From the NCBI GenBank assembly GCA_017506865.1, contig JAFCMP010000024.1, forward strand, positions 434,001 through 498,000: a stretch of 64,000 nt of DNA, written 5' to 3'. Below the pieces are notes generated by a model, which worked only from the letters and a program-made list of their open reading frames with translations, searched no databases and was not told the DNA's origin. The stretch comes from Tribonema minus (Eukaryota > Sar > Xanthophyceae > Tribonematales > Tribonemataceae). The stretch's first letter is position 1. Every line of letters starts with the position of its first letter. Below are positions 13,242-62,300 of this stretch, piece after piece. The position numbers were made by a program, and so were the translations under genes.

Positions 13242-16200
13242 ATGGCGAGGACGGTGGTGCTGCAGGCGCTCGTGGCCGCCGCCCTTGTTGGTGGTGGTTG
13301 GTCTTTCGTCCAGCCCTCTGCACGCCCGGCAGTTCGTTCCCCACGATCTGCATGCAATGCGGTGGCTCCTCTGCTGCCTTCACATGCATACAGGGTCAGC
13401 GAGCCTGCCAGTGGCGCCAGCAGGCATATGCAGCCCTTGCGCATGAGCGCAGCGGCGGCGCCTGCAACCGATGGGCCCGCACAGAAAGCCAAGCGGCTCA
13501 AGGTGCTCGGATACTTTGTGCTTTGGTGAGTGAGTGTTGAGTTATGCTTGCGCTGCACAGGCTTTGGACGCCAACCCGCGCGTCTGAGTGGAATGTTCAT
13601 GTGCTGCGACATGCTGATGCTGGCGCACTTGTCGGCTGTTGTGTCGTCTTGCATGATGTGTTTTGGATCTTTGAAATTCGTAATTTCGTTTTGAAAACAC
13701 CCGCGACACCTTTGCTCTGGTTGTGCTGCCTTGTTGTGTGCGCAGGTATTTACTCAACATTGGTGAGTCAAATGAATCGCTTGTAAAGGCATCGACTGCT
13801 GTTGGTGATCAGCTGGCGTGGCGATCCCGCATGTCCGCCTCAAATGCGGTACTTGAAGTAGAAACAGTGCACGCATAAACGCGCAGTACATGCGCACTGC
13901 ACGATGTTACAGCACCATCGCCTGCCGTGACTTGAGGCTAGATAATGGATCTGCAACGATATGTACTCAATCTTCTGCTGTACTTGTAAACGTCGTCAAC
14001 TGCCAAAGTTGGCCGCACTCAGAATTCGCACCGCGCACCACCTAGCCTCGTGGTTTAAGCTCCCTAGTGTGTTTTGATGGTGATGTGTAGGCTGCTTTTA
14101 ATGGCGCACAAGGCGTTGACAGACAGCACTCACCCTACTTCTTCTGTTGACGGAACACGGTGTCAACATAACCTGCATGCGGAAACAATCGGGTTGGACC
14201 ACGCACAGCACGTGCGCCAGTGAGGTCAAAGCTTTGCCCGTTCCATGTCCAGTTATGTCCATTTGGCGAAATGCACACTGCGGTTTGTTTCTGTCATGCC
14301 GTCGGTCTGGACGATTGCCATGTGTCGGTCTTCTTGCCCCACTGTCTGCTTGAAGGTGAACGTGCATGGAGACTTGCACAACTGCCGCAGAGACGCGCAG
14401 GCGCATGGCGGCGCCACCTACACGACGTCACGGATACGATCGGAACGACACGACGTCATTGATGCGATTAATTAATTAAACCACGTTATTTTACTGCGTC
14501 CGACGTGTGCGCCGCAACCGCAGGGTACAATATCTCAAACAAGGCGACGCTGAACCGCGTGGCGCTGCCGTGGCTGGTGTCATCGGTGCAGCTCGTTATC
14601 GGATCCATGTACATTGCGCTGGTGTGGGGGCTCAAGCTCAGGAAGGCGCCCAAGCTCAGCAAGGCGAACCTTAAGACGGTGTTCCCGCTCGCGGCGCTGC
14701 ACACCACCAGCCACATCTCCGCCGTCATCGGCCTCGGCGCTGGTGAGTTTCTCTGCAGTGGCGCCGGTTGTTTCTTACTGAAAACATCGTTTAAACAATA
14801 CGGGTTTGAAAAAAAGAAGAGCGCGCAGATTTTGTGCTGGTAGTCTCTGAGCCTTGCTTCCAAAAAGGGGGTTACCGTAGTCTATAATTAAGCCCATGGG
14901 GCGACTTTTTTATGAGAGCGAAAAAAGGGGGGTGGGGCGTCATTAATATATGGAGGAAAAAAGGGTGGGGCGGATTAATAGTTTAGCCATTACAGCTTAT
15001 CTAATACCATCATGAAGTGACGGGCATCGCCAGCCTTCCCGTTTTCGATCAGCGCGTTGAACCTCAAAAGCCGGTTCAACTCGAACTTGAAGTGCCGGTT
15101 CAAAAAACAAGCACGTGATGGCTGACCGATCAGGAGCTGGCGGTAGGCTAAAGCCAGGCAAGCCATGAACAAAGATTTGTGTGAGGTACAGGAAGGCAAG
15201 CAACGCAGCATGCTTCACGTCTTCCGCAATTGCCTAGCCGGGCCAATTCGGTCTCCGCAACAGCCTCAGCTCAGCCTCCCCACCTGCAACGCAGCAGGTT
15301 GTCGTGCAGATAGAGTCTGAAAGCGACAGCGATTATGCTTCTGTGTATTTGCTGCCTGTTTACGTGATTGCTGCCTTTCTGACTGCTCTGCACGTTGCTG
15401 GCAATTGCTGCTTCGCGTTGTTCTATGTGCCCAAATTATGTGGTGATGTAGTATGAGTCACTGAGTGGATCATCCCTGCAGCATGCGCATGCGCAGAGGG
15501 CACGTTGTGCTGCATATGCATATGCAAAAAGGGGGGGGGGCATATTTTCATGAGCAAATAAAATGGGTAGGGCATCATTTTAGGAGGGCTCGGAAACTCA
15601 TAAAAAAGTCGCCCCATGGGCTTAATTATAGACTTTACAGTACAAAAACAGAGGGCAGATTTTGCGCTGACCTGTGCCAATCTTCAAAGTAGGAAGCGGA
15701 ATGAAAGGAGCACACTGCTGTTCGCATCTCAGAGAGAATTGATCGACCATTGTCGTGCGCCAGCGATGACTGTCACCTTTCACCATTGCATTTCCATCAA
15801 TGCAGCGGACCACCAGGTGTAACTGAATGCTCTCGCACTGCTAACCCAACTGCCGCGTGCTGTCACATTGCTACTTTGCAACAATGGCAGTCCAGCATTT
15901 TTCTGTCCAACTCATACACGCCGTGCATACATGCCTTGGGTTCAACCACAGGCGCCTGTACTCTGCTACGCAAGGCGTCGCGTGATGCCTGCGTCCCTCA
16001 CATGAAGCAGAATTGGGCGTGAAGCTTCGCACAGTACGTGGCACAAACCGTGTATTGATATATGAGCGCCACCGGATTGTGATGTACTCCGACCATAGGA
16101 GAGCATCGTGCGATTGCAGGAGGTGACTCGCCATTTGGTGCAAGTTGTACGTGAGACAAAGTCCTGGGGGCGCTCTTCAACGGCGGCGCTCAGCGCGCTC

Positions 16201-18438
16201 CTCCTGTTTCAACTCTAGTATAAATTTACCAACAGCACGTGAACCTAAACACATCCTCGCCCTTTCTGACACACCTTTGCCCCCCCCTTCCACCCCCCCC
16301 GTCAGGCGCCGTGGGCTTCGTGCACGTCGTCAAGGCCCTGGAGCCGCTCTTCACGGCGGCGCTGAGCGCGCTGCTCCTGCAGAAGTTCATGCCGCTCCCC
16401 GTGTACGCGTCGCTGCTGCCGGTCGTCGGCGGCGTCGCGCTCGCGTCCATGAAGGAGCTGTCGTTCTCGTGGGTCGCGTTCGCGGGCGCCATGGGCAGCA
16501 ACGTCGCCGCCGCGACGCGCGGCGTGCTCGCCAAGAAGCAGATGGGGCAGGTGCAGGCGCCCAACATGGACCCCGGTGAGTGGTGGCCCCGATCGCGGCC
16601 CCGATCGATGGAAGTTCCAGGCCACCATGTGGGACCTGACCTGTGAGCGCCGTCTGTGTACACACATGTACTTGAAGTTTGATGTTGAAGTTGTCACGCG
16701 CGTTTGTGGGCGCCATGGGCAGCAACGTCGCCGCTGCGACGCGCGGCGTGCTCGCCAAGAAGCACATGGGGCAGGTGCAGGCGCCCAACATGGACCCCGG
16801 TGAGCGGCGGCGGTATTTTCAGTTACGCCAATAGGGACCCCCCCCCCCCCCCCCCCCCCTGTATACACACGTACTTGATGCGTGTGACCGTGAGCGCATT
16901 GTCTATGCACACTTATACTTGAAGTGTGATGCTTGAAGTTGCCACGCGTGGCGTGCTTGCCAAGAAGCAGATGGAGCAGGTGCAGGCGCCCACCGTGGCC
17001 CCGTGAGTGTGGCGGAAGTTTCAGTTCGGCATGCATGTATGTACACATGTATACTAAACAAAACTTCAATCACGCACATGACTCGTTCCCCGCAGAGGAC
17101 TTGTACGGCGCGATGACGCTCACGTGCGTTGTACACACGTGTACCGAAGCAAACTTCAATTCACGCATGTGAGACTCCGCCGCAGGGAACCTGTACTGCG
17201 TGATGACGCTCATCGCGTGGGCATGTATGCACAATGTGTACCTAAGCAAACTTCAACTCCCCACGCAGGGGACCTGTACGGCGCAATGACGCTCAATCTG
17301 TTGTATGCACATGTATACTGAACTAAACTTCAATTACGTGCATCAATCATACGTGTGACTCTCCGCGCAGGGAACCTGTACGGCGTGATGACGCTCATCG
17401 CGGCGGCGATCCTCTTCCCCGCGGCGCTGGTGGTCGAGGGCCCGCGCATCAAAGCCGTCTGGGCCGCGGCACAGGCCGCCGGCCACACGTCGCGCGCCAT
17501 CTGGCGCGGCATGATCCTCTCCGGCCTGTACTTCTACCTGTACAACGAGGTCGCCTTCTACTGCCTCAACTCGATCGACGCAACCACGCACGCCGTCGGC
17601 AACACGGTGAAGCGCGTCGTGCTGCTCGGCGTCTCCGTGCTCGTCTTCGGCCACCAGCTCACGCCGCTCGGCGCGACCGGCTCCGCCGTCGCCATCGGCG
17701 GTGAGTCACTGGTTGAAGTTGAATGTGAAGTAGTGTGGTAGTGCTCGTCTTCGGCCACCGGCTCACGCCCCCCGGCGCGACCGGCTCCGCTGTGCCATCA
17801 GGGCAAGTCCTTGTTCAATTTCAAAGGTTGAAGTAGTCAAATCTTATGTGCTGCTCAGCATCGCGGTGCTCGTCAACGGCCGCAGCTTGCGCCGCTTGGC
17901 GCGTCCGGCACGGGCGTCCTCATTGGCAGTGCGTCCTTCCTTGCAGTTGAAGTTGAGGTAATGCAGTGCAGGCATCCCGCTTGTGTCAGTACTCATGTAG
18001 GTGTCGCTCGATGGAGTTCAGTTCAGAAGTTTGCTTCAGCTCGTGCACAGCAATGTCACCGTCACTCGTGTTTTGCACTGCTGAATCGCCGAGCATCCCC
18101 GTTCACCCCGCCTCAGCATGAAAGGGGGCAGTGGTTGCCGCCCTGCCTGTCCCGGAGACGACGCTCGCGTAGCTGCCAATGTAGAACGTAACACACAATA
18201 ATTTGACCATTCTCACCACTACCCCTTGTGCCGCGCCCCCCCCCTCGCACCAGGCGTCCTCGTCTACTCGCTCACCAAGAACCACTACGCCAAGAAGGAG
18301 GCGGCCGCGGCGCCCCCCACGGCGCTGCCCAAGGCCGAGGAGCCCGCCCCCGCTGCCCCGCAGCCGCCGCAGCAGGTGCCCGCGCGCTCTGCAATCGAGG
18401 AGGCGGCGGCGGCCGCGGCGGAGAAGAAGGACGAGTAG
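13242..18438 (+). CDS. TPT: Plastid triose-phosphate/phosphate translocator, complete, six exons, 434 aa
   Basis: Exons 13242-13525, 13746-13762, 14524-14742, 16306-16575, 17371-17700 and 18254-18438 sum to 1305 nt with every phase matching. Residues 1-21 look like a signal peptide, followed by WS|FVQPSARPAVRS, a transit peptide with phenylalanine at +1, so import into a complex red plastid is expected. The rest is a TPT/NST (drug/metabolite transporter) protein: LLNIGYNISNK, HTTSHISAVIGLGAG, FVHVVKALEPLF, VALASMKELSFSW, HAVGNTVKRVV, and about ten membrane segments. The Lys-Arg pair in VKRVV and the Lys in VKALEP are the usual phosphate-ligand residues. It exchanges triose phosphate or 3-phosphoglycerate for phosphate at a plastid membrane. 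The last 50 residues are an Ala/Pro/Glu-rich tail. Exon 2 has only 17 nt. Introns 3-5 contain decoy exon-edge copies, and intron 3 holds a MITE. The exact substrate among TPT, PEP and hexose-phosphate types is inferred. Confidence 0.95.
14875..15640. mobile_element. MITE-like element 2 inside translocator intron 3, 44-46 bp TIRs, TA-flanked
   Basis: The left end (14875-14916, starting CCGTAGTCTATAATTAAGCC) and the right end (15597-15640, inverse, starting CTGTAAAGTCTATAATTAAG) match almost exactly apart from a 2-nt gap. TA borders both ends (14873-14874, 15641-15642). The 766 bp interior has no transposase. It shares the CYGTA start and G-rich subterminal style with the MITE at 10640. The host sequence either side also repeats (GCAGATTTTGTGCTG at 14826, GCAGATTTTGCGCTG at 15656). 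Confidence 0.82.
16165..16210 (+). repeat. Decoy copy of inner 5' part of translocator exon 4
   Basis: GCTCTTCAACGGCGGCGCTC and following bases match exon 4 around 16347-16390 (CTCTTCACGGCGGCGCTGAG). It lies ~130 bp upstream of the true acceptor and is out of frame. Confidence 0.6.
16697..17004 (+). repeat. Two decoy copies of the 3' edge of translocator exon 4
   Basis: The first copy (16697-16801) repeats about 100 bases of exon 4 with about four changes and keeps the donor CCCCG|GTGAG. The second (about 16945-17004) is shorter and more diverged, ending CCCC|GTGAGT. The true donor is 16575|16576. Neither copy has its own convincing acceptor, so they act at most as competing donors. Confidence 0.85.
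17090..17297 (+). repeat. Three decoy copies of the 5' edge of translocator exon 5
   Basis: Acceptor-plus-exon starts recur at 17096, 17186 and 17269, each reading close to GGAACCTGTACGGCGTGATG after a CAG. The true exon starts at 17371. Spacing is 90, 83 and 102 bp. Only the last copy continues in frame through the rest of exon 5. Confidence 0.88.
17740..17940 (+). repeat. Two decoy copies of the 3' edge of translocator exon 5
   Basis: Bases like GTGCTCGTCTTCGGCCACCG through the Gly-Ala-Thr-Gly-Ser codons recur at about 17740-17800 and, more decayed, at about 17866-17930. The true donor is at 17700. Confidence 0.82.
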
Positions 18439-20169
18439 AGGAGCAGGCCCAGCAGCAGCAGCGCTCGGTGATCTGATACAGGGCGCCTGCGGCAGGCAGC
18501 GGCGCGGCGGGGCGGACAGCGGCGGCGGCGGCGCAGAGGCAGTTTTGAGACACCAGATGGAAAAGAACGGAGAGACAGAGAGAGGAAACCGGAGCAGGCC
18601 TGCGCTCTCTCGCGGTGAAGGCGGGGGGAGGGGGCATGTCATGTATAGCTGCAGTCGCGGGGCGGCGCGGCGGTAGGCGGCACTGGGGGCGCGCGGTGGC
18701 GGCGCATGGATGGAGCACTGCTGTGAATGGGCGTGCTGCGCGTCATTTCACACATTGGCAGGGTTGTGGCACTGTCGAGGTTTGGGGTGTGAGGGGGGGG
18801 GAGGGCTGTGCCGTTTTTTGTGTTGCACAGAGGGACCCCCCGTGCGCGCCCGTGTGCCCTCGCTCGCATGGCGCAGCGGTGGATCAATAGCATTGGCGGT
18901 TGGAAGGCAGTGGATCATGCGCTTGTTGCGGTTGCTGGTCTCATTTTGCTGTCATTTGCACCACTCAAGTCCACCCAGTGAGTGAGTCCCGCTTTGAGGT
19001 ACACTGTGCAGCAGCTTCAAGGTGCTTGACAAGAGCGTTCAGTTGCAGCCCTTGTGCATGATTGACAATTTTGGGGCTCTGTGAGCGGTATCAGATGTCA
19101 TGGCGTTTACATCTTCAACCTGCAAGACGCGCCGCTCTGCACTTGAACTTGCAGTTTGGATCACACCTCCAGAGGAACGAAGTATGTAAGGTTGAGCTTT
19201 CCTAGGTACGCTCAGTGCGCAGGTCTCCCTCCCTGGGATTTGATTTTTTTCAGTTACCACTCTGCAGTGCTATTTCGCTCTTGAACCAGTGCATGCAATT
19301 TAGGCTGCTCAGTGCTCAGGTGTCCCTGAGACTTTGATGTTTTGTAAATGTCACCATTGTGCTACATAATGTTGCTTGAACGAGTTGTTGAAATAAGGCC
19401 TCTCTGGGCCAGCAGAACTGCGCTGTGCGAGCAGGAGTACACCACACACCACCGGATCCATGCAAGAGCACTCTTTGAGAGTGGTCCATTGTTCAAGAGG
19501 CAATGCAGGTGACACTCCCACCGTGTCACTGCAAGCCTTAAGCATAGGGCGCACGCAATGCTACCACCCCCCACGGCTCCTAGCGAGTCGCGTTGGACCA
19601 GCGAGTTGCATAGGGGACGCTCAAACCAGCTATCATGCCCAAGGCCTAAATGCGCTATGCTGGGCTGCTAGCATGCATGCGGAAACTATGTCCAAAACAC
19701 CCACAACAGCAGCTGTCACGACCAAGCTCGACGCCACTGCCACTATGACTACCGCAGCAGAAAGGCAGCAACGTGAAAGTCGTGCGAGCAGTGTGCGTGT
19801 GGTCGCAACAACTCAAGGACGACAGCAAGTGAGCGCGCCGCCGCTGTTCTGGCTCTAATGCACGATGGCAAGTGGCGTCAACAGTTGACGTTGCACAACA
19901 GGGACAGCGCTCAAGCAGATTATCGCGGAAGCAGCGCAGGTTGCGTTCAGCGCTGCATGCAAATGCCAACACTGCACGAGCGCCTGAAGACACGCAAAGA
20001 TTTGACATGCACGCATCAACACCAACGCCCTTCTAAAGTGGACATCTGCAACAGGCAGACACGCAGTGCGCATGAACCACACACAATGCGTGGCGCAAGC
20101 GCACAGCTTCAACACCCGGGAGCATCGATGGTGCGAGGGCACAGCACGTGCGTGGGCAGTGCCATGTGC
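18439..20169. other. Gene-free spacer downstream of the translocator
   Basis: It holds the translocator 3' UTR (CAG-rich) and GC-rich unique DNA. A 132-codon frame at 19460-19858 has no recognisable composition or relatives and looks like chance. No RNA gene or promoter is evident. Confidence 0.5.
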
Positions 20170-20353
20170 TTTTTATTAATTCTCGCTCAGGGCGCGAAAA
20201 AGCCCAGATGATGGTCTAACTTGATGCTGCTGTACGGAATCTGCATGTCGTGTGACTTCTGAAAGTGTCTCAACGACAACCACTCAAACGCCGCCGCCGC
20301 CAAATGGCATTTCGGGATCCTCCCCTACGTCCTCCTCCATGTGCCCCCCCCCC
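20170..20353 (-). mobile_element. Truncated LINE tail
   Basis: Same ~185 bp tail family as 12721-12967, beginning on its sense strand at the G-run and ending in TTAATAAAAAG. Flanks GTACATGG/GCACATGG hint at an imperfect target duplication. It sits just downstream (in the minus direction) of the RPAC1-like exon. Confidence 0.85.
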
Positions 20354-20397
20354 ATGTACATTTCGAGCGCTGCTGCAGCGGCGCTCCGCGCGTCACG

Positions 20398-20640: not shown

Positions 20641-20699
20641 ACGGCACGCCCCCCTCCCCCTCCCCCTCGCTGCCCCCCCCCCAGCCCCCACGTCCTCAG

Positions 20700-22147: not shown

Positions 22148-25100
22148 TTACTGCACGCCCTTGGCTGCCAGCTCTGCCTTGACGCGCTCGAAGTAGGTGG
22201 GGTCCGGGTACCTGGGGCGCGAAAACATTGTGGGCAGCGCGATAATGCAAACTGCAAGTCATTCTTCAAGTGAAAGTGACGCTCCGTGACTGACACGCGA
22301 CCAGCAATCATAAACTGCGAGTGAGGCTTCTATTGTAAACGTGTGACGCACGGACAGCATGTTGAGGTTGACAGGCCTAGGCGTACAGCAAGTATTGGAG
22401 CGAGAGGCGATTGGCCAGGCTGCTGACAGACTGCCGGTCGCTGCGCAATCACATCCATGCTCTCCGACTTATTCGCTAAATCAGTGCCTTGAAACCACGT
22501 GTCCGAGTGCTGCAAGGTCGTTCTGACGATGAGCGTCAGGCGCCGCTCGGATCAGCGCCGCAGCAGCGCTCTGCACAACCACCGAAGCACGAGACACTCC
22601 CAACAACTCACCCGAAAGCCTGCGCGCCGCCGTTGGTGCGCGTCTTGTGGCGCACGCCGTTCCAGTTGACCCAGTTCGGTACGCCCGCATGCCGACAGTG
22701 AGCGTCAGCCGCTGCTCGAAGCAGCGCCGTAGCAGCAGCGCTTTGCACATACTACCTAAGCGCGATAAATTCCTTTTAGGACTCACCCGAAGGCCTGCAC
22801 GCCGCCGTTGGTGCGCGTCTTGTGGTGCACGCCGTTCCAGATTACGCAGTTCGGTATGCCCGTCGTGACGGACGTGCCCACGGTGAACGTCAGCCGCTGG
22901 TCGAAGCAGCGCTGCAGCAGCGCCAGCACCGCACGCCCGTCGGGGGTGTCGGGTAGGTATGCGACGCGGCTCGTGCCGGAGTAGCGCTGGCCCGGGTGCG
23001 GGTGCTTGGGGCCCTGGATCTGCGCCCGCCAGGGGGGGGGGGTTGGGTGGGGGGGGGGGGGGATGCAAAGGGGGGGGGGGTGTTGAGACGTTTCGACGAT
23101 TGCTGGTGGGGGGGGGGGGGGGATGGGGAGGGGTCAGAATCGGGTCAGACGTTTAGCAATGGTAGGGGGAAGGGGAGTGGGGGGGAGTGGGGGGGCAGTA
23201 TTTGGGGACCGGGGAAGGGGGGGGCTAGGTGGGATGGACATTCACCATGGTGATCCTGCGAATGCACAACTACTATGCACGCTGTGCAAAACCAAGCAGC
23301 TCAATCTGCTGTATGCGAGACACAGTAGCTCTGAGAACTGCGTCACCTTGTGATCTCAGGCACAGTCTACCATCAAAGCATGGACTACGCACGCCCAAGT
23401 CCAGTGGCTTCAACAGTTGTGCCCGTTCCGTGGGCTCAAAACATACCACCAAAGTGCTGCGCACGCAACTGGCCCTACCCCTGACCATAACCCCAACCCG
23501 GAGAGGGCGCTACACGCTGACCCCCGACGGAAACACCTAACCCCGACCCTCACTCTAAACCTAGCCCTCACCCTAAACGTAACCTGAACCTAATCCTAAC
23601 GCTAATCCTAACCCACAGCGACAATAAACAAAAAGACAAACGCGGTGCTCCCTCACCCCCGACGAGAACGCGTAGTTGATGACAATGGTGCCCGCTCCTG
23701 CGTAGCCGCTGCAGTGCATGTGGGGGCTGGTGGTCACGTTCATTGTGCCCTCGGGCTGATCGCCGATGACGCTGCCGTACATGATGCCGCACGTGGGGCA
23801 CTGCGCGCGACAGAGGCACAGGGAGCAGCGGTCGCTATCAGAGTAGTACTGTGCAAGGCGTGTGCATATGATGCAAGTGTCCTTTTTCGAGGCGCACGCA
23901 CTGCAGCAGTGGCGCTTGCGGTGCCACCGAGTGGCCGCCGATAGAGGTTCCGTACATCACGCCGCACGTCGTGCGCTGCGTGCGTCGAATGCGCACAGCA
24001 CGGGAGCTGCAGATACTGCCATGCACTTTGAAGTCTTGTGTCTCCCTTCCACTCCGCGTGGGGCTGTGTAAGTCCGCGCTGAATGGTCGTTGATGAAGAC
24101 ATCGTCTCGCTCTTGCACGCAGGACGCAAAGCTTGCACGCTGCACCCTGCCCCCCCCACTGCAACGCACCCGCAAGCAACTAGACTACGGCACACACACA
24201 CAGAGGAAAACCCTGCGAAACCACATCATTCTTGCCCCACAGACAGGCGCGCATGAGGTCTTGTGTACCTTCATAGTTCCGCCTGGTTGCGCACATTGCA
24301 CACGTTGGATCTGAATGCGGCTGCATGTGCACTGCCGCAGCTGTGGTTCAGAGGTGCTCGTGGTGCCGTCCGACACGTCGCGGAATAGTTCAATTGTGAA
24401 GTTTGCGGGGGCACGTCACACACACGAGATGAGCGCGGCGCACCACCAAATCGCTGTTGCACCGACCACATCCGTGTCCACATGCCACCTCTGTGTACAC
24501 CGTGACCATCCTTATGAGCGCCGTCTATATTATTATACAAATTAATAGGTGAAGTACTCAAAGTTTGAGCAGCCTGTATTTGACCTTGAAGTTGGCGGTG
24601 TGCGACGCACCGCGTCGGCACCGACCACACCACGCAGGGCAGCGCAGGCAATTCAGGTGCAGGCTACTTCAATTCAAGCTTCAAGAGCGTTCTCCTGCCG
24701 CGCTGCGCAGAGAGAGCTGCACCCGCGTGCTCATCGCACTTCAAGCTCAACATCAAACTCACGCTGTAAAAGATGGGCGAGCTGAGGCGACGCGTGGCGC
24801 GCTTGCCGTGGCGCCGGTGACACGGAACAGCCTGACGATGCAGTAGCTGTGCGCGTCTCACTTCAATCCAACTGCAATTCACTGATTAACAAACATGGTG
24901 GCGCAAGCTGACGGGCAATGCGCGCTTGCCGTGAGATCGATGTCGAACACCATGGCGATGCAGTCGCGAGTACGCATTCTCACTTGAAGTTTGACTTCAA
25001 ATTAATTATCAAAGAGCATGGGGGCACGCGCGGCGTACTTGCCTTGGGGCCGGTGGCGTGGAACACCCCAGGCGGCTATGCAGTTGCGGTACGCACTCTC

Positions 25101-31378: not shown

Positions 31379-31592
31379 TAGTGGTCGTTGTGTTGTAGAG
31401 GGCCTGCTGGTGCTCGTGTGCACATGATGGCAGGCACAACGGGTGTGGGCAGCAGGTTGTGCTGCCTAGCACGCCTTTCGGACACGTCGACATGCACAGA
31501 TACATACAAGGCTGTAAATACACGATTCTGCTGGTGCATCGTCTTTCAGGCGCCGCTTGTTGTTTAACGCTTCGCGCAGGCATGTTCCCCTA

Positions 31593-34205: not shown

Positions 34206-35089
34206 GCACTACAAGCCGCACATGAGAGAGCACTGTCGCATACAACGCTTTAGAGCACTTAACTTGACTGCCGCTCGGCTGCACACAATGGGCACCGAAG
34301 CACCAGATCCGAGCCACTTGGCGTGCACCAGCGCCACCGCGCTGCACGGCCGGCACGCTCGTTTACCGCTGCTGTGCAGTACTGAGGCGACGGTTACTGC
34401 CAGTATTCCGACTGACCAAAGCGAAAGTGACACAGGGGGATGTGCAGAAGTGGGGTGGTCCCCCTCTGCGCGGACATACCTGCATGCCTAGCCTTCCTTC
34501 ACGAGCGGCGTGCAAGGACTTCGTCATTCAAGGACTTTGTCATGCGGGCCGCGTCGGGCGTGTTCAGGCGTATGCCGTGCCCGTTTTACAGAAGCCAGGC
34601 GCTTGGCGGCTCTGGGAATAGACATTCTGTTGCAGATTCGGTCGCAACGTCGCAGTCAATGGCGGCTGCCCCTCCGCCCACTCATGTACTGCTGCCGCAT
34701 GACCCACTTGCCACATTGCCAATGTGCTTGACGAATGCCAGCCCCTTTGCAATTCCTAAAGTATCACTAGTCCCCTGCGCTGCCACCCACCTTCCTGATC
34801 AGCTCGAGCACCAACTCAAAAATGCGCCTGGGAAGCTTGAGAGGCAAACACCATGCTTTGTGATTGTCATGCATGGAGATCACCTTTCAAGTGGCCCACG
34901 AACGGCACCACCACTTTAGAGGGCTTCCCTCCTGTACCCCGCGTGCAACAGCAACGCAGATGCTAAGGTAAATTCAAGCAATTTTCTTTCTAAGGCAAGG
35001 TACTGGTGTCATGTCATGCTTGCAGGTGTTGTCCAACGTCCACAGGAGAGGCTCAGGGGTGTGCTGCTGACCTGATAAAGCATGCGATT
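34206..35089. other. No supported gene
   Basis: A 159-codon plus frame at 34440-34919 has ordinary composition and no recognisable motif. It lies between two mobile elements and I do not call it. Confidence 0.5.
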
Positions 35090-38634: not shown

Positions 38635-38674
<40 letters not shown>

Positions 38675-50481: not shown

Positions 50482-50523
<42 letters not shown>

Positions 50524-53110: not shown

Positions 53111-53141
<31 letters not shown>

Positions 53142-54507
53142 AGAGGTCTACCACAAGCTCATCAACTTCCAGGAGAAGTGCTTCAAGGGGTGCCTGGACT
53201 ATGACTACGTGCACTACAGCCTCATCTTCAACGCCTTTGTCTTCAGCCAGATCTTCAACGAGTTCAACGCGCGCTCCATCGGCAACGAGTGGAACGTCCT
53301 CAAGGGCATCACCAGCAACCCCATGTTCCTGGCCATCATCGTCATCACGCTGGGCCTGCAGGTGCGTGCTTGCCTCGAACGCTAAGAGCTTGCACACAGA
53401 AGTCTTTTTGACTACTGTGGATATCGTGGTACTCTTTGACTCACGGCCAACGACTGCAGCAGCGGCGACCACGGTTACTGGTGGAAGGCACAGGCGGCAA
53501 ATCATCCCTCATCACCTGGAGCTCTACGATCTCTTGATTCGTTTTCATTTGCGAGTGCATGGGTTTGCTCGCTTCAGCTCTGAAGGAACGTGCGGAGGTA
53601 CAGCCACTGCGGCGCGCGCTGTGACGCATAGACGGTCAAGGGCTCAAGTCAGAGAGTGTAGGCATGTAGGTATGGAGTGACTCGCCCACATCTGCGCGTA
53701 AAAGGGTTACCTGCGTCGGCGCAACCTCCACTTCAGCTTGAGGGGCCAAGCCTGTATCCTCACAGACGTGGGTCAGGGACGCGGGGAGTCGCTCCATACC
53801 ACTTTTGTGAATAGAGGCGTGAACCCACGCGATGCGCTCGCAGTCAATCTACATGCGCAATCAACAGCTGTGGCGTCACCAAAATGGCGGACGGCTGCCG
53901 TGCGCCGACGCCCGCCCTGCCGCTAGCCGCGCTCAGCGGCAACAAGCTTCTTGAAGTGTGGAGACAGTCTGTCCTACGTCAAGATGAGAGCACTGCGTCA
54001 TGCCGAATCACCCCCTTCCCAGCGCTTCAAAACTCGGACTCCTCTTGCGCGCATGGAAAGTACAGCGTCATGCACCGCGCTATGGTGTGCTACTTGCAAG
54101 TTGACGCTCCGAAAGTCGGACTCACGGTGCTACAGCGAAACACACCGCGCTTCGCCGTGTGCTACTCCAAGTTGACGCGGCGTGACACCTCAGCCCCCCC
54201 CCCCCCCCCCACCCCCATGCTACTGAGAGTTGCCCCTGCGTGAGACCTCACCCCCCACCCCCCCCCCGCCCCCCCCCGCCACCCCCCGCAGATCTTCGTC
54301 ATCGAGGTCGGCGGCGAGTTCACCAAGACGGCGGGGCTCACGTGGGACCAGTGGCTCATCACGGCCGCGCTCGGCGCCATCACCATCCCCCTCGGCATCC
54401 TCATGCGCTTCGTGCCCGTCGCCGAGAACCCCAAGGACTTTGCCGGCTACGACGTCACCGCCGCCGCGCTGCCCGCAGTGACGCCCTCGCCTGATAAGCT
54501 CGCGTGA
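38257..54507 (+). CDS. P2B-type (PMCA/ACA-like) calcium-transporting ATPase, complete, 17 exons, ~1187 aa
   Basis: Exons: 38257-38407, 38578-38915, 39996-40262, 40925-41119, 42134-42365, 43303-43480, 44352-44523, 45212-45485, 46158-46378, 47469-47633, 48355-48672, 49469-49579, 50106-50387, 50815-50931, 52183-52293, 53146-53361, 54292-54507. The total is 3564 nt and all phases match. Exon 1 is the least certain; an in-frame ATG at 38317 has the better context (1167 aa). Motifs: PEGLP (M4), CSDKTGTLT with the phosphorylated Asp near 455, KGASERVL (nucleotide binding), [18 protein letters not shown] (hinge), [18 protein letters not shown] (M6), FNEFNAR (M8). Ten membrane segments are expected. 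It pumps Ca2+ out of the cytosol across the plasma or an internal membrane. Odd points: the actuator loop reads LTGEPDD, not the usual LTGES. The M7-M8 loop (exons 14-16, about residues 969-1065) is long, with six or more cysteines and an NTT glycosylation sequon. No long C-terminal calmodulin domain is present; the N-terminus has a poly-Gly stretch. Confidence 0.95.
38980..39385 (+). repeat. Decoy copies of the 3' edge of ATPase exon 2
   Basis: Three decayed echoes of exon 2's end are present. About 38990-39030 has TTTGGCAGCAGCTGCTTC then GCCGCCCATGAAGG. About 39083-39182 is the longest copy, ending ATATGAAG|GTGTGC. About 39320-39385 is the most decayed. The true donor is 38915|38916. Confidence 0.72.
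39790..39870 (+). repeat. Decoy copy of the 5' edge of ATPase exon 3
   Basis: CAG|GGCTTCCTCGAGCTCGTTGT and on to GTGCTGATCGCTGCCGCGGTG repeat the first ~75 bases of exon 3, 202 bp upstream of the true start. Only the downstream copy leads on to the full exon. Confidence 0.88.
40380..40440 (+). repeat. Decoy copy of the 3' edge of ATPase exon 3
   Basis: CTGTGGCACGGCGAGACACT then GCAG|GTGTGACTCTCC copies the true edge (CTGCGGCACGGCGAGACGCT, GCAG|GTGCGACTCTCC) 166 bp downstream. Confidence 0.85.
40737..40878 (+). repeat. Dispersed repeat family C, copy 1 (ATPase intron 3)
   Basis: A ~140 bp sequence centred on CAGCAGCGGCGACCACGGTT and GGTGGAAGGCAC recurs at 53430-53570 (same strand) and 51880-52015 (opposite strand), all in introns of this one gene. 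One shared frame reads [19 protein letters not shown], so it may be a scrap of a mobile-element ORF. Not recognised. Confidence 0.8.
41700..41795 (+). repeat. Telomere-like TTAGGG tract in ATPase intron 4
   Basis: GTTGGGTTAGGGTTAGGGTT and degenerate neighbours (GAGGTTAGGGTTGGGAGG) are present. TTAGGG is the telomere motif of many algae. Confidence 0.8.
42400..42980 (+). repeat. Array of about six decoy copies of the 3' edge of ATPase exon 5
   Basis: The edge GGCGCGCCACGGCGGGCAGG, then ACGTGCTGCAGC|GTGAG, recurs with donors or mutated donors near 42471, 42562, 42675, 42762, 42850 and 42975. Each is followed by TTGAAGTTGAAG-type runs. The copy at 42615-42682 is near perfect. The true donor is 42365|42366. 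Confidence 0.88.
43025..43245 (+). repeat. Decoy copies of the 5' edge of ATPase exon 6
   Basis: GCAG|GCATCAGCGAGGCGTTCATC (43169) carries decayed codons for the M4 helix as far as the PEGLP equivalent. A shorter one, GCGGGCATCATTGAGGCC, lies near 43035. The true start is 43303. Confidence 0.82.
43600..43998 (+). repeat. Three decoy copies of the 3' edge of ATPase exon 6
   Basis: GAGACCATGGGCAACGCCAC then ATCTGCAG|GTGAG recurs at about 43605-43663, 43757-43832 and 43930-43991. Spacing is ~160-170 bp. All keep good donors (GTAAGG, GTGAGG, GTGAGA). The middle copy is nearest to the true exon in sequence, so age does not simply track distance here. Confidence 0.88.
44188..44262 (+). repeat. Decoy copy of the 5' edge of ATPase exon 7 (phosphorylation site)
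   Basis: AACAG|CGACAAGATGGGGACGCT copies the exon start that encodes DKTGTLT, but reads DKMGTLT. Using this acceptor would alter the catalytic motif, so it should be silent. Confidence 0.85.
44550..44660 (+). repeat. Telomere-like tract plus decoy copy of the 3' edge of ATPase exon 7
   Basis: GGTTAGGTTTAGGGATAGGG (44550-44585) is followed by a copy of the exon's last ~65 bases (44587-44652), ending TTCAAG|GTGAGA like the true edge at 44523. Confidence 0.85.
44876..44938 (+). repeat. Near-perfect interstitial TTAGGG array
   Basis: About ten tandem TTAGGG units with one variant lie in ATPase intron 7. This is the cleanest telomeric array in the window. Confidence 0.92.
45595..46075 (+). repeat. 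Decoy edges in ATPase intron 8 (one exon 8 end, two exon 9 starts) with telomere-like tracts
   Basis: 45597-45650 copies the KGASERVLG end of exon 8. 45750-45858 and 45968-46075 copy the first ~105 bases of exon 9 (CAG|GCCCCGACGGCAAGCCGCAG), and each is followed by a CCCTAA-like tract. The copy at 45750 reads a stop within the first codons. The true exon 9 starts at 46158. Confidence 0.9.
46640..47400 (+). repeat. Regular ~170 bp array of decoy 5' edges of ATPase exon 10 with telomere-like spacers
   Basis: Exon-10-like starts follow an AG at 46792, 46969, 47128 and 47295; the true one is at 47469. Intervals are 177, 159, 167 and 174 bp. Each unit has CCCTAGCCCTAA-type DNA, then AAGCAGCGACGCC-type DNA, then the acceptor and ~50 exon bases. 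Confidence 0.9.
47735..48020 (+). repeat. Two decoy copies of the 3' edge of ATPase exon 10
   Basis: 47735-47813 and 47938-48013 copy the last ~80 bases (CGGCGTCCTGCGCGAGGGCG through ACGCCTGCGCAG). The first ends CAG|GGACG (donor lost); the second keeps CAG|GTGCGT. Confidence 0.9.
48085..48240 (+). repeat. Two decoy copies of the 5' edge of ATPase exon 11
   Basis: GACGAGGTGCTGCCGCGCCT occurs at about 48089 and, with acceptor CAG, at 48190-48235. The true exon starts at 48355 after a C-run and a short CCCTAA stretch. Confidence 0.88.
48760..49210 (+). repeat. Four decoy copies of the 3' edge of ATPase exon 11 (hinge motif)
   Basis: Copies of CTCAAGGCCGCGGACGTCGG ... ACCAAG|GTGCG end at 48833, 48989, 49106 and 49208 (last donor lost). 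The true donor is 48672|48673. Spacing is 161, 156, 117 and 101 bp. The longest copy (48909-48989) includes the [11 protein letters not shown] codons. Confidence 0.93.
49384..49468 (+). repeat. Decoy copy of the 5' edge of ATPase exon 12 and telomere-like tract
   Basis: ACGCAG|GTCGCGCAGCGTCCGACA (49389) copies the exon start (true 49469). Between the two lies AACCCTAAACCTAACCCTAA, which supplies the polypyrimidine tract. Confidence 0.88.
49915..49965 (+). repeat. Decayed copy of the 5' part of ATPase exon 13
   Basis: TGTGGCCCTCTCCATCATCG then TCTTTAGCCCCATC echoes GTGGTGGCCCTCTCCATCGT in exon 13. It also follows a C-run. Confidence 0.65.
50395..50525 (+). repeat. CTG-rich microsatellite in ATPase intron 13
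   Basis: A run of CTG/GTG/CTA trinucleotides begins 8 bases after the donor and ends in about ten pure CTG units. If transcribed it could fold into a hairpin next to the 5' splice site. Confidence 0.85.
50665..50720 (+). repeat. Decoy copy of the 5' edge of ATPase exon 14
   Basis: GCGGTGTTTGACAATGGCCA then GCCGCCCATTTGCAGGAACA copies the exon start (true 50815) about 145 bp upstream. Confidence 0.82.
51248..51378 (+). mobile_element. Short retroelement, family B, with 16 bp target-site duplication
   Basis: The ~99 bp insert (51264-51362) ends GTGGAATATAAT. It is flanked by AAAAGTACAATCTTAC at 51248-51263 and 51363-51378. It shares its last ~45 bp with the tail at 35173-35215. It looks like a 5'-truncated LINE end or a SINE. 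Confidence 0.85.
51393..51587 (+). mobile_element. Truncated LINE tail with 11 bp target-site duplication
   Basis: The insert (51404-51576) starts in the G-run and ends TTAATA. It is flanked by AAAAGTACAAG at 51393-51403 and 51577-51587. It is only 15 bp from the family-B insertion. Confidence 0.9.
51880..52015 (-). repeat. Dispersed repeat family C, inverted copy (ATPase intron 14)
   Basis: Its reverse complement matches 40737-40878, e.g. GGTGGAAGGCATTTGCGGTC and TTGTCACCTAGCGCTCTGCA. No target duplication was found. Confidence 0.78.
52050..52138 (+). repeat. Decoy copy of the 5' edge of ATPase exon 15
   Basis: CTGCAG|CTGGACGCTGGGCACGCC carries ~80 bases of exon 15 but lacks one Asn codon and has no donor. 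The true exon, 52183-52293, lies about 120 bp downstream. Confidence 0.9.
52395..52835 (+). repeat. Scattered telomere-like tracts in ATPase intron 15
   Basis: TTAGGGTTAAGGGTTGGTTT (52408), GGGGTTAGGGCGAGGGTTAG (52616), CGTAACCCTAACCCTGATTC (52734) and TTAGGGCTAGGGTTAGGTTT (52806) are present. Both orientations occur within one intron. Confidence 0.75.
53430..53570 (+). repeat. Dispersed repeat family C, copy 3 (ATPase intron 16)
   Basis: It matches 40737-40878 through GCAGCAGCGGCGACCACGGT and GAGCTCTACGATCT. It starts about 70 bp after the exon 16 donor. Confidence 0.8.
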
Positions 54508-56381: not shown

Positions 56382-59300
56382 ATGAAGGGCATTTTCAGCA
56401 ATGTCAAGAAGAGGGTTGGAAACCGCGAGGTGGAAGCGATACCCGCGGGCTTCGACATCAGCGGCTCGCCACTCAGCAGCAGCACGCACAGTAGCATAGC
56501 ATCGTTGGAGCCAATGGTGAAGGGCCACCACCCCTCTGGCTCTTTAGGGGACATTGTGATTCCGAAACGGGAGAGGAGCAACAGCTTCGGCAACGGCGGG
56601 AAGCGATCCTTTGGTGCCAACACCAAGGCAGATCCCCGCATGAGGGATCTGCCCGCGTTAAAAGACACGCCAGCAGGGAAAAGGGATGCCTTATTTCAGC
56701 TCAAGCTGCAGCTGTGCTGTGTCATCTTTGACCACACGGATCCTGATGCCGACAAGAACGGGATGGAGACTAAGTGGCACACGCTCATCGAGCTGAAGGA
56801 CTATGTCAACACCCCGCAGGGGCAGAAGGTCAGCCCCCCTCTGCTACACCTCTCCAGCAGTGCGCTGCAGTAGCAGCACGCGTCCCCGATGCGCCCCTTA
56901 GCTGTCGCTGCAGGCTGTGGCAGGAGCCCTCAGCTGTCGGTAATTGTAGCTCTCCATTGGTGGCGGCCGCTCCGCTGCTAACGGTCATCGCAGCCATGCT
57001 GCTGCGCGCTCGCTCTCACTCGTGCGCCCCCCCGCCCCGCCTCCCCCCCGTTCCTGCAGCAAATGTTCTCGGAGGCGAACATGCCGGAGATCATCAACAT
57101 GGTGCAGGCGAACATATGCAGAGCGCTGCCGCCGCTTACGGAGTCCTATGATCCGGACGAGGATGAGCCGGTGCTGGAGCCAGCGTGGCCGCATTTGCAG
57201 GTGCGCCCGCAGCTGATACCTACGCCTTTGCGTGTTGCGCGCTGGTGTCTTCATTGTTGAAGTTGCTGAGTTGGTATCGGCCACGCTGGATAGCGGAGGG
57301 CGCGCCGCGAAGGCGCCGCAGCAGTGCTCCGGCGAGCTTGACGGCACGCGGCGCAGCACGCACATCGCTTCAAGGCATCGGTGTGACTTAAGCGAGGCGA
57401 CGTCACGCTGCGCATGCGCCGTGTGCCATTTGGGAACAAGTCCTGTGCCAGCCACAGCTGGTGAAAACTGCATTGTGGGCAATGTGGCCGTGCCTTGCAA
57501 GTGGACTACCTGAGGCGGCATGTGCTCTGGCCCACATGTGCGGCCTCCTGTGGTCTCTGTGCTGCACGCTTGGCGACAGCCCTGTTGTGACTTCAAGGCG
57601 GGGCCGTGATATCGCTGTTTCGCTGCACTGGCGATGGTGACCATTACGCAACTTGTCGACCAACAAGTAGCGCCACAATGATGGTGCATTAGGGCTCGCG
57701 AGTACAGTAGTCTCTGGCACTAACGTAATTATCATAATAAATGTTTGCGTGGATCGTTCCAGCCATCCCGTGGTACTTCAACATCAACAACGTCTACTTC
57801 TCTGTATCGTTGTTGTGGGATCGTCGTCGGGTGGGAGCTAGCAGCGCCACACTATGTAACCGCTGAAACCGTCAAGCGCCTGATTGGACACTCCTCCTGT
57901 GGCTGAGCAGAGTTGCCCAAGCAGACCTGCACCATTGTTCAATACGTAAAGTTCAAGTTGAAGAACACAAGTTCACAGCAGAGCCACCGCGCCAGTTCGT
58001 GCTGCACTCTGTCGTTGCCAGAACAGGCAGAGGTGGCAAATTCGAACGTACGTCGGCCATGAGGCCACACGGCGCCGCAGCTGCCAGCAAACCACGGAAC
58101 GGCGAACTTGCATTCTTCTGAAGTATACACCTCAAAGTAGACACAGCTTTGAATTGAGTGTCCCATGATTTTGACAGGTTGGTGTATTTGTCCATTCGTT
58201 GCCGCGCGGAGCTGTGCACAAAAAGTGGTCGTCGTGACGCATGCGCCAACACACGCTTCACACTTCGACCAGTGGCTGCCCCCCCCCCCCCCCCTCCCTC
58301 CCTGCAAACACGCGCACAATTGACTCACAAGTCTGGCCAGTTGCAACTCGCTCGTCAGGCAGCTAACGAGACCCGGAGTTATGGTCATGGCGGTTAAGCG
58401 TACGATTTACAACCTTCTGCAATTGCGTGCTACCTCAGGCATCCACTGCAAATCTCAGATGTGTTGAAGTTGAAGTTGGCCTTGAACCTGGTCTTGGGTT
58501 TCTGCCCCAGGTCATGTATGAATTGTTCCTGCACTTCGTAGTGAGCGCCGAGGTCAGCCGATTGTGTCAAACATGAAGTTGATCTTGAACTTGATCTTGT
58601 GGCCCCCCGCCCCCCACCCCCCCCCACCCCCCCCTCGCGCAGGTCGTGTACGAGTTCTTCCTGCGCTTCGTGGTGAGCGCGGAAGTGAGCGCCAAGGCCG
58701 CCAAGCGCCACATCGACCAGTCGCTGTGCCTGTGGCTGATCGAGCTCTTTGAGTCGGAGGATCCGCGCGAGCGTGACTACCTCAAGACGATCCTCCACCG
58801 CATCTACGGCAAGGTGCGACGCTCCGCCGCCGTGCGTGGTGGTAGGGTTAGGGTTACCTAGGGTTAGGGTTAGGCTTAGCTCGAGCGCGACTTCCTCAAG
58901 ACGATTCGCCACCATCTACGGCAAGGTGTGACGCTCCGCTGCCGCCGCGCTCTCCGCTCACGCGCACCCTGTGTGCGCCGGGGTGGCAGTCGCCAACAGT
59001 ATGGCGTCGATACTGCGGCAGTGCGTGCCGTAGGCCTGCTCCGCCGCTCTTGGGTCTCCATGTCCGGGTCTCCGTGGCAGCGGCGTGCTCAGTGCACGGA
59101 GGACATGCGTACCCACACGTTGGTTGAAGGTTTCGTTCCGCCGGACTGCTGCGCTGCTCCACCAGCGATGATGCCCTGCGCCGCTGCGTATCCGTCGCGC
59201 CTCTCCGCTCTTCAGAAACTCTGCATGCGGCGCGCGGCGCGCGTCTCGGTCATTTGCGCCGTACGGCGAGGCGGTGCACAGCCGCCGTGTCCGCTGCTGC

Positions 59301-62300
59301 GCGTGCGAGCTGGTCGCGCGTCTGTCCACGCCGCGGTCGTAAACTCGGTGCGCGCACCATCTACCGTTCCAGGCGATGCGCCGCCGCGGCTTCATACGGC
59401 GCGCGGTTTCGGCGATAGCATGTCTTTCGGTTTGCGCAAGAGACGGCCTGGAGTCTCTCAATTGCATCATCTTGCGTACCCGCCCACAAATCCTGTGCGA
59501 AGCCCCCCAAGTTCTCATGCCTGGTGCTCCAGGTGGCGCATCACCGCGGCTTCATCCGGCGCGCGACCGGTAACGTGTTCCACCACACTTTGTGTGATGA
59601 CGGTTCCTGGTCTCTCTACACAGCACCCACACGCCTTACCGCACGTTTAACCGCACTTGCGCTCCTCCAGGTGATGCACCACCGCGGCTTCATACGGCGC
59701 GCGACCGGCAACGCATTCCACCACACCTCGTTTGATGACAGTCCCGAGTCTCTCTGCGCAGCGCTTACACGCCGTGATCTGCGCACTTGCGCTCCTCCAG
59801 GTGATGCACCACCGCGGCTTCATACGGCGCGCGATCGGCAACGCGTTCCACCGCTTTGTCTTTGAGACGGAGCGGCACGCGGGCGTCGCGGAGATGCTGG
59901 AGATCTTGGGCTCCATCATCAACGGCTTTGCCAAGCCGCTCAAGCACGAGCACGTCGTCTTCCTGCGACGCGCGCTGCTGCCGCTGCACAAGCCGCGCGC
60001 CGTCAAGCAGTACCACCAGCACCTGAGCTACTGCGTCGTGCAGTACGTCGAGAAGGTGAAGGGCGCGGAGCGCTGCTGCTGCTGCTGCTGTTGCTGAGCG
60101 CTGCTGCTGCTGCGCAAGCTGCGCGCCGTGAACCGGTACCACTGGCACCTCACTTGGCTATTGCGTGGCACAGCACGTTGAGAAGGGGATGGGGGGGGGG
60201 GGGGGGGGGGGGGCAGGCGGCTGTAGAAATGCCGCTAGCATTTGCGCTACGGCGCGCTGTACCGCTGCGAGCGGGGGCGAAAGAGCGCAGGACTGAGAAA
60301 GGCGCGCTGCTGCGCCTGTTGCGCGCTTGAGCGCTGCCCTGCGTCATGGTGCGATCGCGCGCTGGGCGCCGCCATTGACGCGAAGGGGGGGGGGGGGAGC
60401 TGCTGCAGCGGCTGCAGAAATGCCGCTGGCGTTCGAGCTACAAGGCGCTGTACCGCTGCGAGAGGGCGCGAAAGAGAGTAGGATTGACGACAAGCGCTCT
60501 GCTGCACCTGTTGAGCGCTGCCTCGCATCGCTGCTCAGCGTCCCTGCGCGATCGCGCGCCGGGCGCCGCCATTGACGCGACGGGGAGAGCAGTGATCGTA
60601 CGCTGCCCATCATGTGCAGTCCACTCGAGCGCTGCTGGACCTGTCTGCCTGTCTCGCAAGACTTGGGACATGTGTTGGTGGTGTTAGGGCTGTGCAGACA
60701 CAGTGGCCAGGTTGCCCTGGTCCTTGTATACTTCAACTGTTTAACTCAAGTGGGTGTACTTCAATGGAGTCACCTCTTCTGTCCCGTCTTGCAGGACCAG
60801 GACACCATCATACCGGTGGTCGTGCCGGCTGTCTGCCAGCAGTGGCGTTGCAGCAGCAGCGCGCTCTCCGTGCACACCTCAAGTGACATGCACTTCAACT
60901 CTGCATTCTTCAACTCTGAGCTCCGCCCGCAGGACGCGGACACGGTCATACCGGTGGTGCTGGCGCTGTGCCGGTGGTGGCCGTGGAGCAGCTGCGCGAA
61001 GCAGCTGCTCTTTCTGAATGAGCTGGAGGAGGTGCTGGAGGTGTGCTCGGGGGCGGTGACGGGGACGCCGTGCGGCGCGGCGGTGCTGCGGGAGGCGATG
61101 ATGCCGCTGGCGACGCTGCTGGCGCGGTGCGTGGGGTCGACGCACTTCCAGGTGGGGAACTGCTCCTGAATGGCTCTTGAGTATAACCCTTTTTGCTGCT
61201 GTGTCTTCATGAGTTTTTCCAACCAAGTCCAAGTAAAGCAGCTGCTGGCGACGCTGCTGGCGCGGTGCGTGGGGTCGACGCACTTCCAGGTGGGGGCGCT
61301 TGTGAACTGCTCACGAACGGCTCTTGGATATACCCAATGAATCGCGCATAAATACGGTACCCTACATCAGCTTCAAGTACACCTGCTCTGGACGCTGCTG
61401 GCGCAGCTCGTGGAATCGACACACTTCCAGGTGCGTAAGCTGCGGGAAGCATACGATGGACTTCTCTCATGAAAGGGACTTCCTTCGGTGGTCGGCCCAC
61501 TTTGGTGTGGTCGTGCTTAATCAGACAGGCTCAAACGGAAGCATGGCTTGTTGAAGTTGAAGTACGATACGCCTGCGACGTTGTTGGCGCATTTTGAGGG
61601 GTCCACGCACCTCTGGGTATGCAAGGGGCAGGGGGGGGCTTATGTGCTCAGCAGCGCGTCCATGGCTCGTCAACAGAACTTCAAATATTCACAACAGAAC
61701 TTGTAATATTCACGTTTGATAATCACGAGCCCAAGTTGAAGAAGTGCAATTCAATGTTGCGAAGCGAAGAGTCATCAGCGCTGGCTCTCCCCCTTGTGAG
61801 ACCAGTGCGCAGACCGCTCTGCTGCAGTGAACTGTCGCGCACAGGTACGCCAACACTGTTGATAGAAGTGGGCCGTCCCGGTGTGAGGCAACACTTCAAG
61901 TGTATGGCCGGCGGCGTGCTGTTGTGACGGCGGCAAGTGCAGCTGGCGCCAGCTGGTCAAACAGCACTTGCAAACTTCTACCGATTGTTCGCGTATAGCT
62001 TGCATACAGCTGTGGAGTAGATCAATCGCAGCGCACACTCCGCTCAGAGCGCCGGCAGCTCAGGGCGCAGCTGCGGCAGTTTCGCAAATGGCAGTTTCGG
62101 AAACCTCATGGGCGCCATTTCGCAGGCTGCTGCGCCGCTGGACGTACACACAAGAGTGCCACCCGATAGTGCAGTGATGATGCCGAGAAGAAACTTCTTG
62201 AATGAACATGTGTGCAGTGGTTCGTGTGCAGTGAGCTGATGTCGGCAGCTTCGGGCAGAAGCACCGCGCGGCCCAGCGAGACAGACGTATTTGGAGCTGG

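Follow-up and report, generated by a model that had tools for sequence, protein, structure and literature searches.

The window analyzed here is a 64,000-nt stretch of the genome of the yellow-green alga Tribonema minus (Xanthophyceae), positions 434001–498000 of contig C24 in an assembly of 158 Mb. It holds genes for a triose-phosphate translocator (Pfam TPT), a Deltex-type protein (DTC and WWE), a calcium ATPase, and a B56 regulatory subunit of PP2A (B56). In these genes, exon ends recur as direct partial copies within the adjoining introns, each copy joining a short piece of one exon edge to about 100 nt of intron. An initial annotation of this DNA had described such copies at about 30 exon edges and ascribed them to tandem duplication across splice sites; the copies are real and extend well beyond the window.

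We placed annotated T. minus proteins letter for letter on the DNA with GT..AG introns, resolving all junctions: P0001 (calcium ATPase), P0002 (its paralogue on contig C70), P0121 (B56), and P0241 (translocator). For ATPase exon 7, the first donor (44523) was taken in place of the annotated donor. Each exon was searched by blastn against all introns of the gene it belongs to (E ≤ 1e-3, at least 25 nt). Copies in adjacent introns were found at 24 of the 52 edges of the three annotated window genes, 41 copies in total (Table 1); when ab initio exons are used, the count is 44 copies at 27 of 78 window edges, so that the early figure of about 30 edges stands. Within each of the three annotated genes no copy lay on the opposite strand and none in a non-adjacent intron, which agrees with the early statement that every array matches only its adjacent exon; two additional matches lay away from edges, one of them at 16157–16206. 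The C70 paralogue carries 27 copies at 14 of 22 edges, with one opposite-strand match. The Deltex gene, also listed as affected, is supported by its Pfam domains, and its copy is placed on predicted exons.

For a wider sample we fetched 25 10-kb stretches besides the window, on 10 contigs in all: two for the C70 paralogue, eight at other PF00690 matches, two flanking the window, and 13 gene-blind loci (eight at round positions, five script-drawn). A codon-usage gene finder trained on the two ATPase genes supplied 156 predicted exons (312 edges), each at least 90 nt long with both splice sites; loci L026 and L033 gave no predicted exon. Same-strand and opposite-strand matches were sought in each exon's own 1,200-nt flanks, leaving out matches below 25 nt, low-complexity matches, and exons without both GT and AG. 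When the finder was trained on one ATPase gene and run on the other, 10 of 15 and 7 of 12 exons of at least 90 nt were exact, with 14 predictions each at the penalty used; because this recovery is incomplete, the ab initio exons contain errors and the annotated models are the firmer base. A first low-complexity filter (distinct 3-mers per length) discarded long copies. The main edge, copy, strand, and spacing counts use a corrected filter; the ATPase and B56 copy rows of Table 1 and the results on intron-part homology, near-junction identity, paralogue states and paralogue divergence, noncoding blocks, GT decay, AG offsets, intron-part length, mean exon-part difference, the 28 near-identical copies, and array L019 come from the older one or a variant of it.

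Across the window, the ATPase paralogue, and the 23 further loci, 108 of 312 predicted edges carry 211 copies; the gene-blind loci alone gave 25 of 98. Orientation and direction follow one rule, as originally described: same-strand matches outnumber opposite-strand matches 234 to 8, the donor edge is nearest for 142 of 145 downstream matches, and the acceptor edge is nearest for 82 of 89 upstream matches. Anchoring is tight, with 157 of the 234 matches ending exactly at the splice site. Counting edge against exon-middle copies, a check that the initial annotation had named, left exon middles rare (17 of 234 same-strand matches end at least 30 nt off the edge). The occurrence in several unrelated genes was borne out, with copies on 7 of the 10 contigs. 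Arrays held one to five detected copies, rather than the one to six first reported. Most copies that reach the edge hold the splice dinucleotide (GT in 76 of 101 donor copies, AG in 48 of 56 acceptor copies); the remainder lack it, contrary to the earlier description of every copy as including the splice site.

Table 1. Genes, exon-edge copies, and repeats at the locus (window positions; percentages are identities to the exon unless stated)
Feature	Position	Strand	Details
Triose-phosphate translocator gene (P0241)	13443-18435	+	6 exons; 3/10 edges with copies, 6 copies; Pfam TPT
2 donor-edge copies, exon 16306-16575	16699-16799, 16941-17002	+	101 nt, 96%; 89%
2 acceptor-edge copies, exon 17371-17700	17186-17295	+	97, 89%
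2 donor-edge copies, exon 17371-17700	17741-17927	+	92, 78%
Deltex predicted exon 22787-23019 with donor-edge copy	22530-23019	-	135 exon nt, 82%; Pfam DTC
175-nt tandem array at Deltex exon	22530-22862	-	
Calcium ATPase gene JKP88DRAFT_296915 (P0001)	38257-54504	+	16 exons; 15/30 edges with copies, 26 copies
Donor-edge copy, exon 38754-38915	38965-39031	+	71 nt, 75%
Acceptor-edge copy, exon 39996-40262	39794-39861	+	68 nt, 93%; CAG retained
Donor-edge copy, exon 39996-40262	40379-40425	+	47 nt, 83%
3 donor-edge copies, exon 42134-42365	42490-42562, 42620-42674, 42910-42967	+	92, 98, 76%
Acceptor-edge copy, exon 43303-43480	43176-43239	+	80%
3 donor-edge copies, exon 43303-43480	43604-43990	+	85, 98, 95%
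2 acceptor-edge copies, exon 44352-44523	44038-44254	+	80, 80%
Donor-edge copy, exon 44352-44523	44587-44650	+	91%; public model splices here (44591-44650)
Donor-edge copy, exon 45212-45485	45596-45655	+	92%
2 acceptor-edge copies, exon 46158-46378	45756-45855, 45974-46066	+	100 exon nt each; 87, 83%
3 acceptor-edge copies, exon 47469-47633	46969-47350	+	76, 81, 95%; nearest is most similar
2 donor-edge copies, exon 47469-47633	47736-48013	+	88, 90%
Acceptor-edge copy, exon 48355-48672	48190-48235	+	98%
3 donor-edge copies, exon 48355-48672	48762-49106	+	85, 87, 84%; GTGCGT donor in all 3
Acceptor-edge copy, exon 49469-49579	49389-49423	+	82%
PP2A B56 regulatory subunit gene (P0121)	56382-63814	+	7 exons; 6/12 edges with copies, 9 copies; Pfam B56
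Acceptor-edge copy, exon 58643-58813	58511-58558	+	81%
Donor-edge copy, exon 58643-58813	58879-58925	+	86%
3 acceptor-edge copies, exon 59801-60055	59375-59722	+	94, 89, 96%
Donor-edge copy, exon 59801-60055	60098-60185	+	78%
Acceptor-edge copy, exon 60933-61151	60800-60863	+	75%
2 donor-edge copies, exon 60933-61151	61241-61430	+	98, 85%
Dispersed repeat, about 190 bp	12775-12960, 20165-20356, 31591-31780, 36224-36407, 51400-51585		Two inverted

The copies have a regular anatomy. The exon part spans 25–135 nt with a median of 55 (99 edges) and is mostly shorter than 80 nt, which replaces the 40–130 bases given earlier. Successive copies are spaced 100–220 nt apart in 193 of 211 cases and less than 100 nt in 3 of 211, with medians of 155 nt for donor and 160 nt for acceptor copies. 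Inside arrays, the far breakpoints agree within 3 nt for 48 of 122 donor pairs, against a null of 0.12, and for 27 of 46 acceptor pairs, against one of 0.18: arrays share breakpoints and spacing as a minisatellite does, above chance yet far from all pairs. Measured against introns of other loci, homology of the intron part exceeds the 95% null for 61 of 97 donor copies and for 40 of 55 acceptor copies; since exon and copy share that part in most cases, the units stand head to tail. The copies are thus direct and adjacent, with exon and intron sequence both present. Duplications of whole, mutually exclusive exons were considered and rejected: each copy holds one edge only, its far end lies inside the exon, and an excess of AG at the far junction is weak.

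Simple repeats also occur at these sites. By eye, TTAGGG- or GTTGAA-type repeats stand at the junctions of several arrays, and in the ATPase copies at 45756–45855 and 45974–46066 the exon part abuts CCCTAA-like repeats, the first copy having an in-frame stop. Within 150 nt of the donors of the 156 predicted exons, GTTGAA occurs 34 times vs. 2 for TTCAAC, and TTAGGG 16 times vs. 6 for CCCTAA. The bias is mirrored within 150 nt of acceptors (TTCAAC 22 vs. GTTGAA 1, CCCTAA 25 vs. TTAGGG 2, CTAAC 40 vs. GTTAG 6) and is far weaker 400–800 nt from splice sites; the CTAAC near acceptors we take to be branch-point-like. A TTAGGG array of 9.7 nearly perfect units lies in an ATPase intron (44878–44935).

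Substitutions between exons and copies are consistent with neutral decay. Differences per site at codon positions 1, 2, and 3 are 0.090, 0.079, and 0.160, a pattern that fits neutral change in the copy (positions 1 and 2 alike) plus synonymous change in the exon (the excess at position 3, where about twice the change is expected and seen); the mean exon-part difference is about 11%. We rejected purifying selection on the protein encoded by the copies: some ATPase copies look mainly synonymous by eye, yet the pooled codon positions fit neutrality. Two early descriptions of age held in part. For the arrays as graded fossils, the nearest copy is on average more similar to the exon (91.4% vs. 88.0%, Wilcoxon P = 0.0002) but is the best in just 33 of 57 arrays. 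For a continuing process, 28 copies of at least 35 nt have exon parts 95–100% identical to the exon, but none of 18 exon–copy pairs at 97% or more has an intron part at 85% or more.

The ATPase paralogue provides a yardstick. The two genes differ by 0.097, 0.073, and 0.27 at codon positions 1, 2, and 3; as copies differ less from their exons than the paralogues do from each other, the average copy is probably younger than the paralogue split. All seven comparable copy-bearing donor edges of the window ATPase have copy-bearing counterparts in C70 whose breakpoints are similar, and, as expected, the window ATPase copies find matches in the paralogue's introns too. At paralogue-diagnostic sites, copies carry their own exon's state 278 times, the other paralogue's 70 times, and neither 31 times (237 own vs. 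66 other after removal of one misaligned edge); some arrays show the opposite trend, the window exon-11 donor copies, for instance, having 2 own vs. 3–6 paralogue states each. Either arrays were rebuilt at the same places or old ones were kept in step with their own exon. One ATPase intron, 38916–39995, which carries edge copies at either end, has no counterpart in the C70 paralogue, where the exon continues across the site; it may be a gain or a loss.

We consider it moderately probable that these are exon-anchored tandem arrays, in which duplications straddling a splice site were tolerated and then re-amplified in register. Local tandem duplications of about 100–220 bp would arise in and around genes. 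After a duplication across a donor the first donor would stay in charge, and after one across an acceptor the last acceptor would; such events would be tolerated because that site goes on defining the exon while the extra copy is left in the intron, which lengthens. A duplication internal to an exon would break the gene and be removed by selection. The founding unit, mostly 25–100 exon nt, the splice site, and about 100 intron nt, would be re-amplified much as a minisatellite is, so that arrays extend into the intron from both ends while copies decay neutrally. Tandem duplication across the splice site, as originally proposed, is the simplest origin given the anchoring, direction, orientation, and adjacency; the anatomy points to a founding event at the DNA level, the direction rule to selection as the filter, and the breakpoints common within arrays to re-amplification. 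A further step, in which the exon converts its copies, would explain why exon parts are closer to the exon than intron parts. The suggestion that this is a route to new introns was not borne out: in the models used, the copies sit inside existing introns.

Several observations weigh against this account of tolerated and re-amplified duplications. One is the poor preservation of intron parts. An intron part duplicated together with its exon part is expected to diverge at most about twice as fast. Where exon parts are at least 97% identical (n = 18), intron parts average 0.70 and none reaches 0.85; where exon parts fall below 80%, intron-part identity is 0.63, against a shuffled baseline of about 0.56–0.59. 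Over 208 pairs the two are weakly tied (r = 0.28); at face value this speaks against a single age for both parts, but a refreshing step or faster intron change would also produce it. A permissive alignment of the intron parts saturates. In donor copies, identity drops from 0.92 over the last 10 exon nt to 0.79 at +1 to +5 and 0.59 at +6 to +10. Intron parts at 95% identity or more occur only between copies of one array, at locus L019, whose young copy–copy duplications have exon parts at 0.94–1.00 and intron parts at 0.96–0.99.

This mismatch is what exon-templated homogenization would produce: arrays would be old, with the exon repeatedly overwriting their exon parts (by ectopic gene conversion or by template switching, for which complementary DNA is a conceivable source) and the intron parts left to drift. 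Such a process would add to tandem duplication, and we give it a substantial chance, a little short of even. The weak tie between the two parts, the fall in identity inside 10 nt past the splice site, and the tendency of copies to follow their own paralogue's exon at diagnostic sites all favor it, as does the equal similarity of exon and intron parts in the recent L019 duplications. A tandem pair in a B56 intron (60193–60585) still matches at 80% along the full period, with 3% indels; faster scrambling of intron sequence is therefore not universal. On the other side, intron parts match better between an exon and its own copy (0.48, n = 45) than between the exons of the two paralogues (0.26, n = 10); copies may therefore simply postdate the split, with introns changing fast. 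Tracts of 30–70 nt are also short for gene conversion. Refreshing by the exon or faster intron change near exons would each account for the pattern.

The second difficulty is that duplication is not limited to edges. Of 707 noncoding blocks of 200 nt lying no more than 1.5 kb from predicted exons, 219 have local direct copies and 14 an opposite-strand match; in another random draw the figures were 55 of 224 noncoding blocks vs. 80 of 156 exons. Part of the edge excess is thus better visibility of exons. Intron–intron pairs are harder to detect because intron sequence diverges fast, and ordinary local duplication might operate everywhere, edges standing out since conserved exons make their copies recognizable. 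We regard this as possible but rather doubtful as a full explanation. The near blocks contain edge copies themselves and so are not a clean control, and blocks farther away have fewer copies, 37 of 304 (11 with an opposite-strand match), some of these loci probably holding missed exons. Exon-part lengths are also not those of random breakpoints, which predict an exon part above 90 nt at 38.3 of 99 edges where 11 of 99 are observed (Kolmogorov–Smirnov P about 1e-14 over 106 edges, with paralogue edges not independent). An apparent hard ceiling of 80 nt on the exon part was a filter artifact, yet correcting it raised the count above 90 nt only from 4 of 91 edges to those 11, still far below 38. 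Selection may have removed long copies; the length deficit counts against tolerated duplication at random positions and against duplication everywhere.

The third difficulty, the uneven spread over contigs, also counts against ordinary duplication everywhere. Copy-bearing edges number 21 of 44 on C13, 39 of 116 on C24, 16 of 26 on C70, 5 of 6 on C160, 5 of 14 on C164, 8 of 14 on C224, and 14 of 30 on C346. No edge copies were found on C112 (0 of 42; L018, L025, L030, L032, L035), C515 (0 of 18; L020, L028), or C173 (0 of 2; L017), so that three contigs have 0 of 62 edges vs. 108 of 250 on the other seven. Fisher's test of C13 vs. C112 gives P = 4e-8, with the reservation that a gene's edges are not independent of one another and that some predicted exons may be false. 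Plain tolerance of duplications does not predict such unevenness, and our confidence in exon-anchored tandem arrays is slightly lowered accordingly. The C112 loci have sequence in common with C173, C346, C224, and C24, while dispersed repeats of the window recur on C515; foreign contigs are therefore not the obvious answer, the sharing speaking against them short of proof.

Two further observations also weigh against the tandem-array account. Decoy GT is kept in 72 of 97 copies vs. about 83 under neutral decay (estimated from codon positions 1 and 2), a loss slightly above expectation that hints at selection against decoy donors; and in donor copies AG is in excess at a single offset relative to the far junction (23 of 104 vs. 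about 7, partly owing to a few arrays). The AG excess would suit copies that are functional decoys or alternative exon ends under selection, as would exon parts outlasting intron parts and the public ATPase model, in which the exon stops early and resumes in the donor-edge copy as an exon at 44591–44650. We think this improbable. Change at codon positions 1 and 2 is almost the same, decoy GT disappears no more slowly than under neutrality, and the copy-using model omits a segment of 15 residues with a counterpart in the six other homologues that showed the region (P0002–P0006, P0009; four of the 11 queried gave no line); given that conservation, the copy-spliced model looks like a prediction error.

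The remaining alternatives are weaker still. Introners, or other mobile elements landing in exons, would leave similar sequence in many introns of unrelated genes; recurrent simple repeats do occur in introns (GTTGAA, TTAGGG, and complements), but the copies match the adjacent exon alone in the three annotated window genes, with no non-adjacent match within any of them, and we hold this very unlikely. An assembly or haplotype artifact, which the absence of copies from three contigs might suggest, is scarcely credible given exon parts about 11% different from the exon, neutral-type substitutions, and direct arrays of up to five copies.

Returning to exon-anchored tandem arrays, their short exon parts and poorer intron parts misfit random duplication, so something refreshes the exon parts or positions the duplication. 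One more far-reaching possibility, which we put forward tentatively and think less likely than its absence, is self-renewing intron growth: duplication would start preferentially at exon edges and leave a short exon footprint, arrays would outlast gene duplication, the exon would rewrite its copies, and the process would be regionally active. If so, introns would be built mostly from copies of the exon ends beside them, some fossil and some refreshed.

Whatever their origin, edge copies lengthen introns, add spurious splice sites, and can lead gene annotation astray in T. minus. How introns lengthen and how a splice site is chosen among near-identical neighbors are open questions. Extrapolated from the gene-blind edges, the genome should hold very many natural experiments in which a working site stands beside one to five recent copies. 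Because these often keep an intact consensus at known distances, rules of splice choice may be testable and steps of intron growth orderable in time.

Other repeats in the window are of different kinds. The dispersed repeat of about 190 bp has five window copies, 87–99% identical, and also occurs in L023, L028, and L033. A second dispersed repeat lies in three ATPase introns in both orientations (40737–40859, 51912–52002, 53426–53548; 74–86%) and at six other loci. Long reading frames at 6041–10240 and 31708–34208 have by eye the look of retroelement reverse transcriptase and are candidates for such.

In searches of an open-access library we found single boundary-spanning cases only and no serial, genome-wide, edge-anchored copying at this density. 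One close case is a boundary-spanning duplication in a potato gene, where a new intron arose from a cryptic donor (PMC4974935): one event in one gene, whereas the T. minus copies are serial, lie on both sides of the intron, and remain inside an existing one. About a third of the sampled T. minus edges are affected.

Rogers-type intron gain, in which an exonic AGGT segment is duplicated in tandem (review, PMC3443670; Drosophila examples, PMC2891723), is alike in that tandem duplication provides extra splice sites. There the exonic duplicate becomes the intron, whereas the T. minus unit straddles a working splice site and lengthens its intron; in the models used, no new intron lies between copies. 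Repair-mediated duplication of proximal DNA in vertebrates, linked to break repair, has a median of 147 bp and can carry splice sites; as described, tandem copies were filtered out, an exon was duplicated in opposite orientation, and partial exon/intron sequence was involved in 4 of 824 donors (PMC2671141). Those duplications are short and local like ours; in T. minus, however, the copies stand in direct tandem order and are anchored at the edge. Direct repeats of 4–30 bp near intron borders (PMC11782384) are common to both ends of one intron; they share the exon–intron border location, whereas the T. minus arrays are serial copies of one edge.

Minisatellites have direct units, regular spacing, and breakpoints common within an array, and the T. 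minus arrays resemble them in all three. Unlike minisatellites, each T. minus array is tied to the splice site of a different exon, and the intron part of its unit is strongly diverged.

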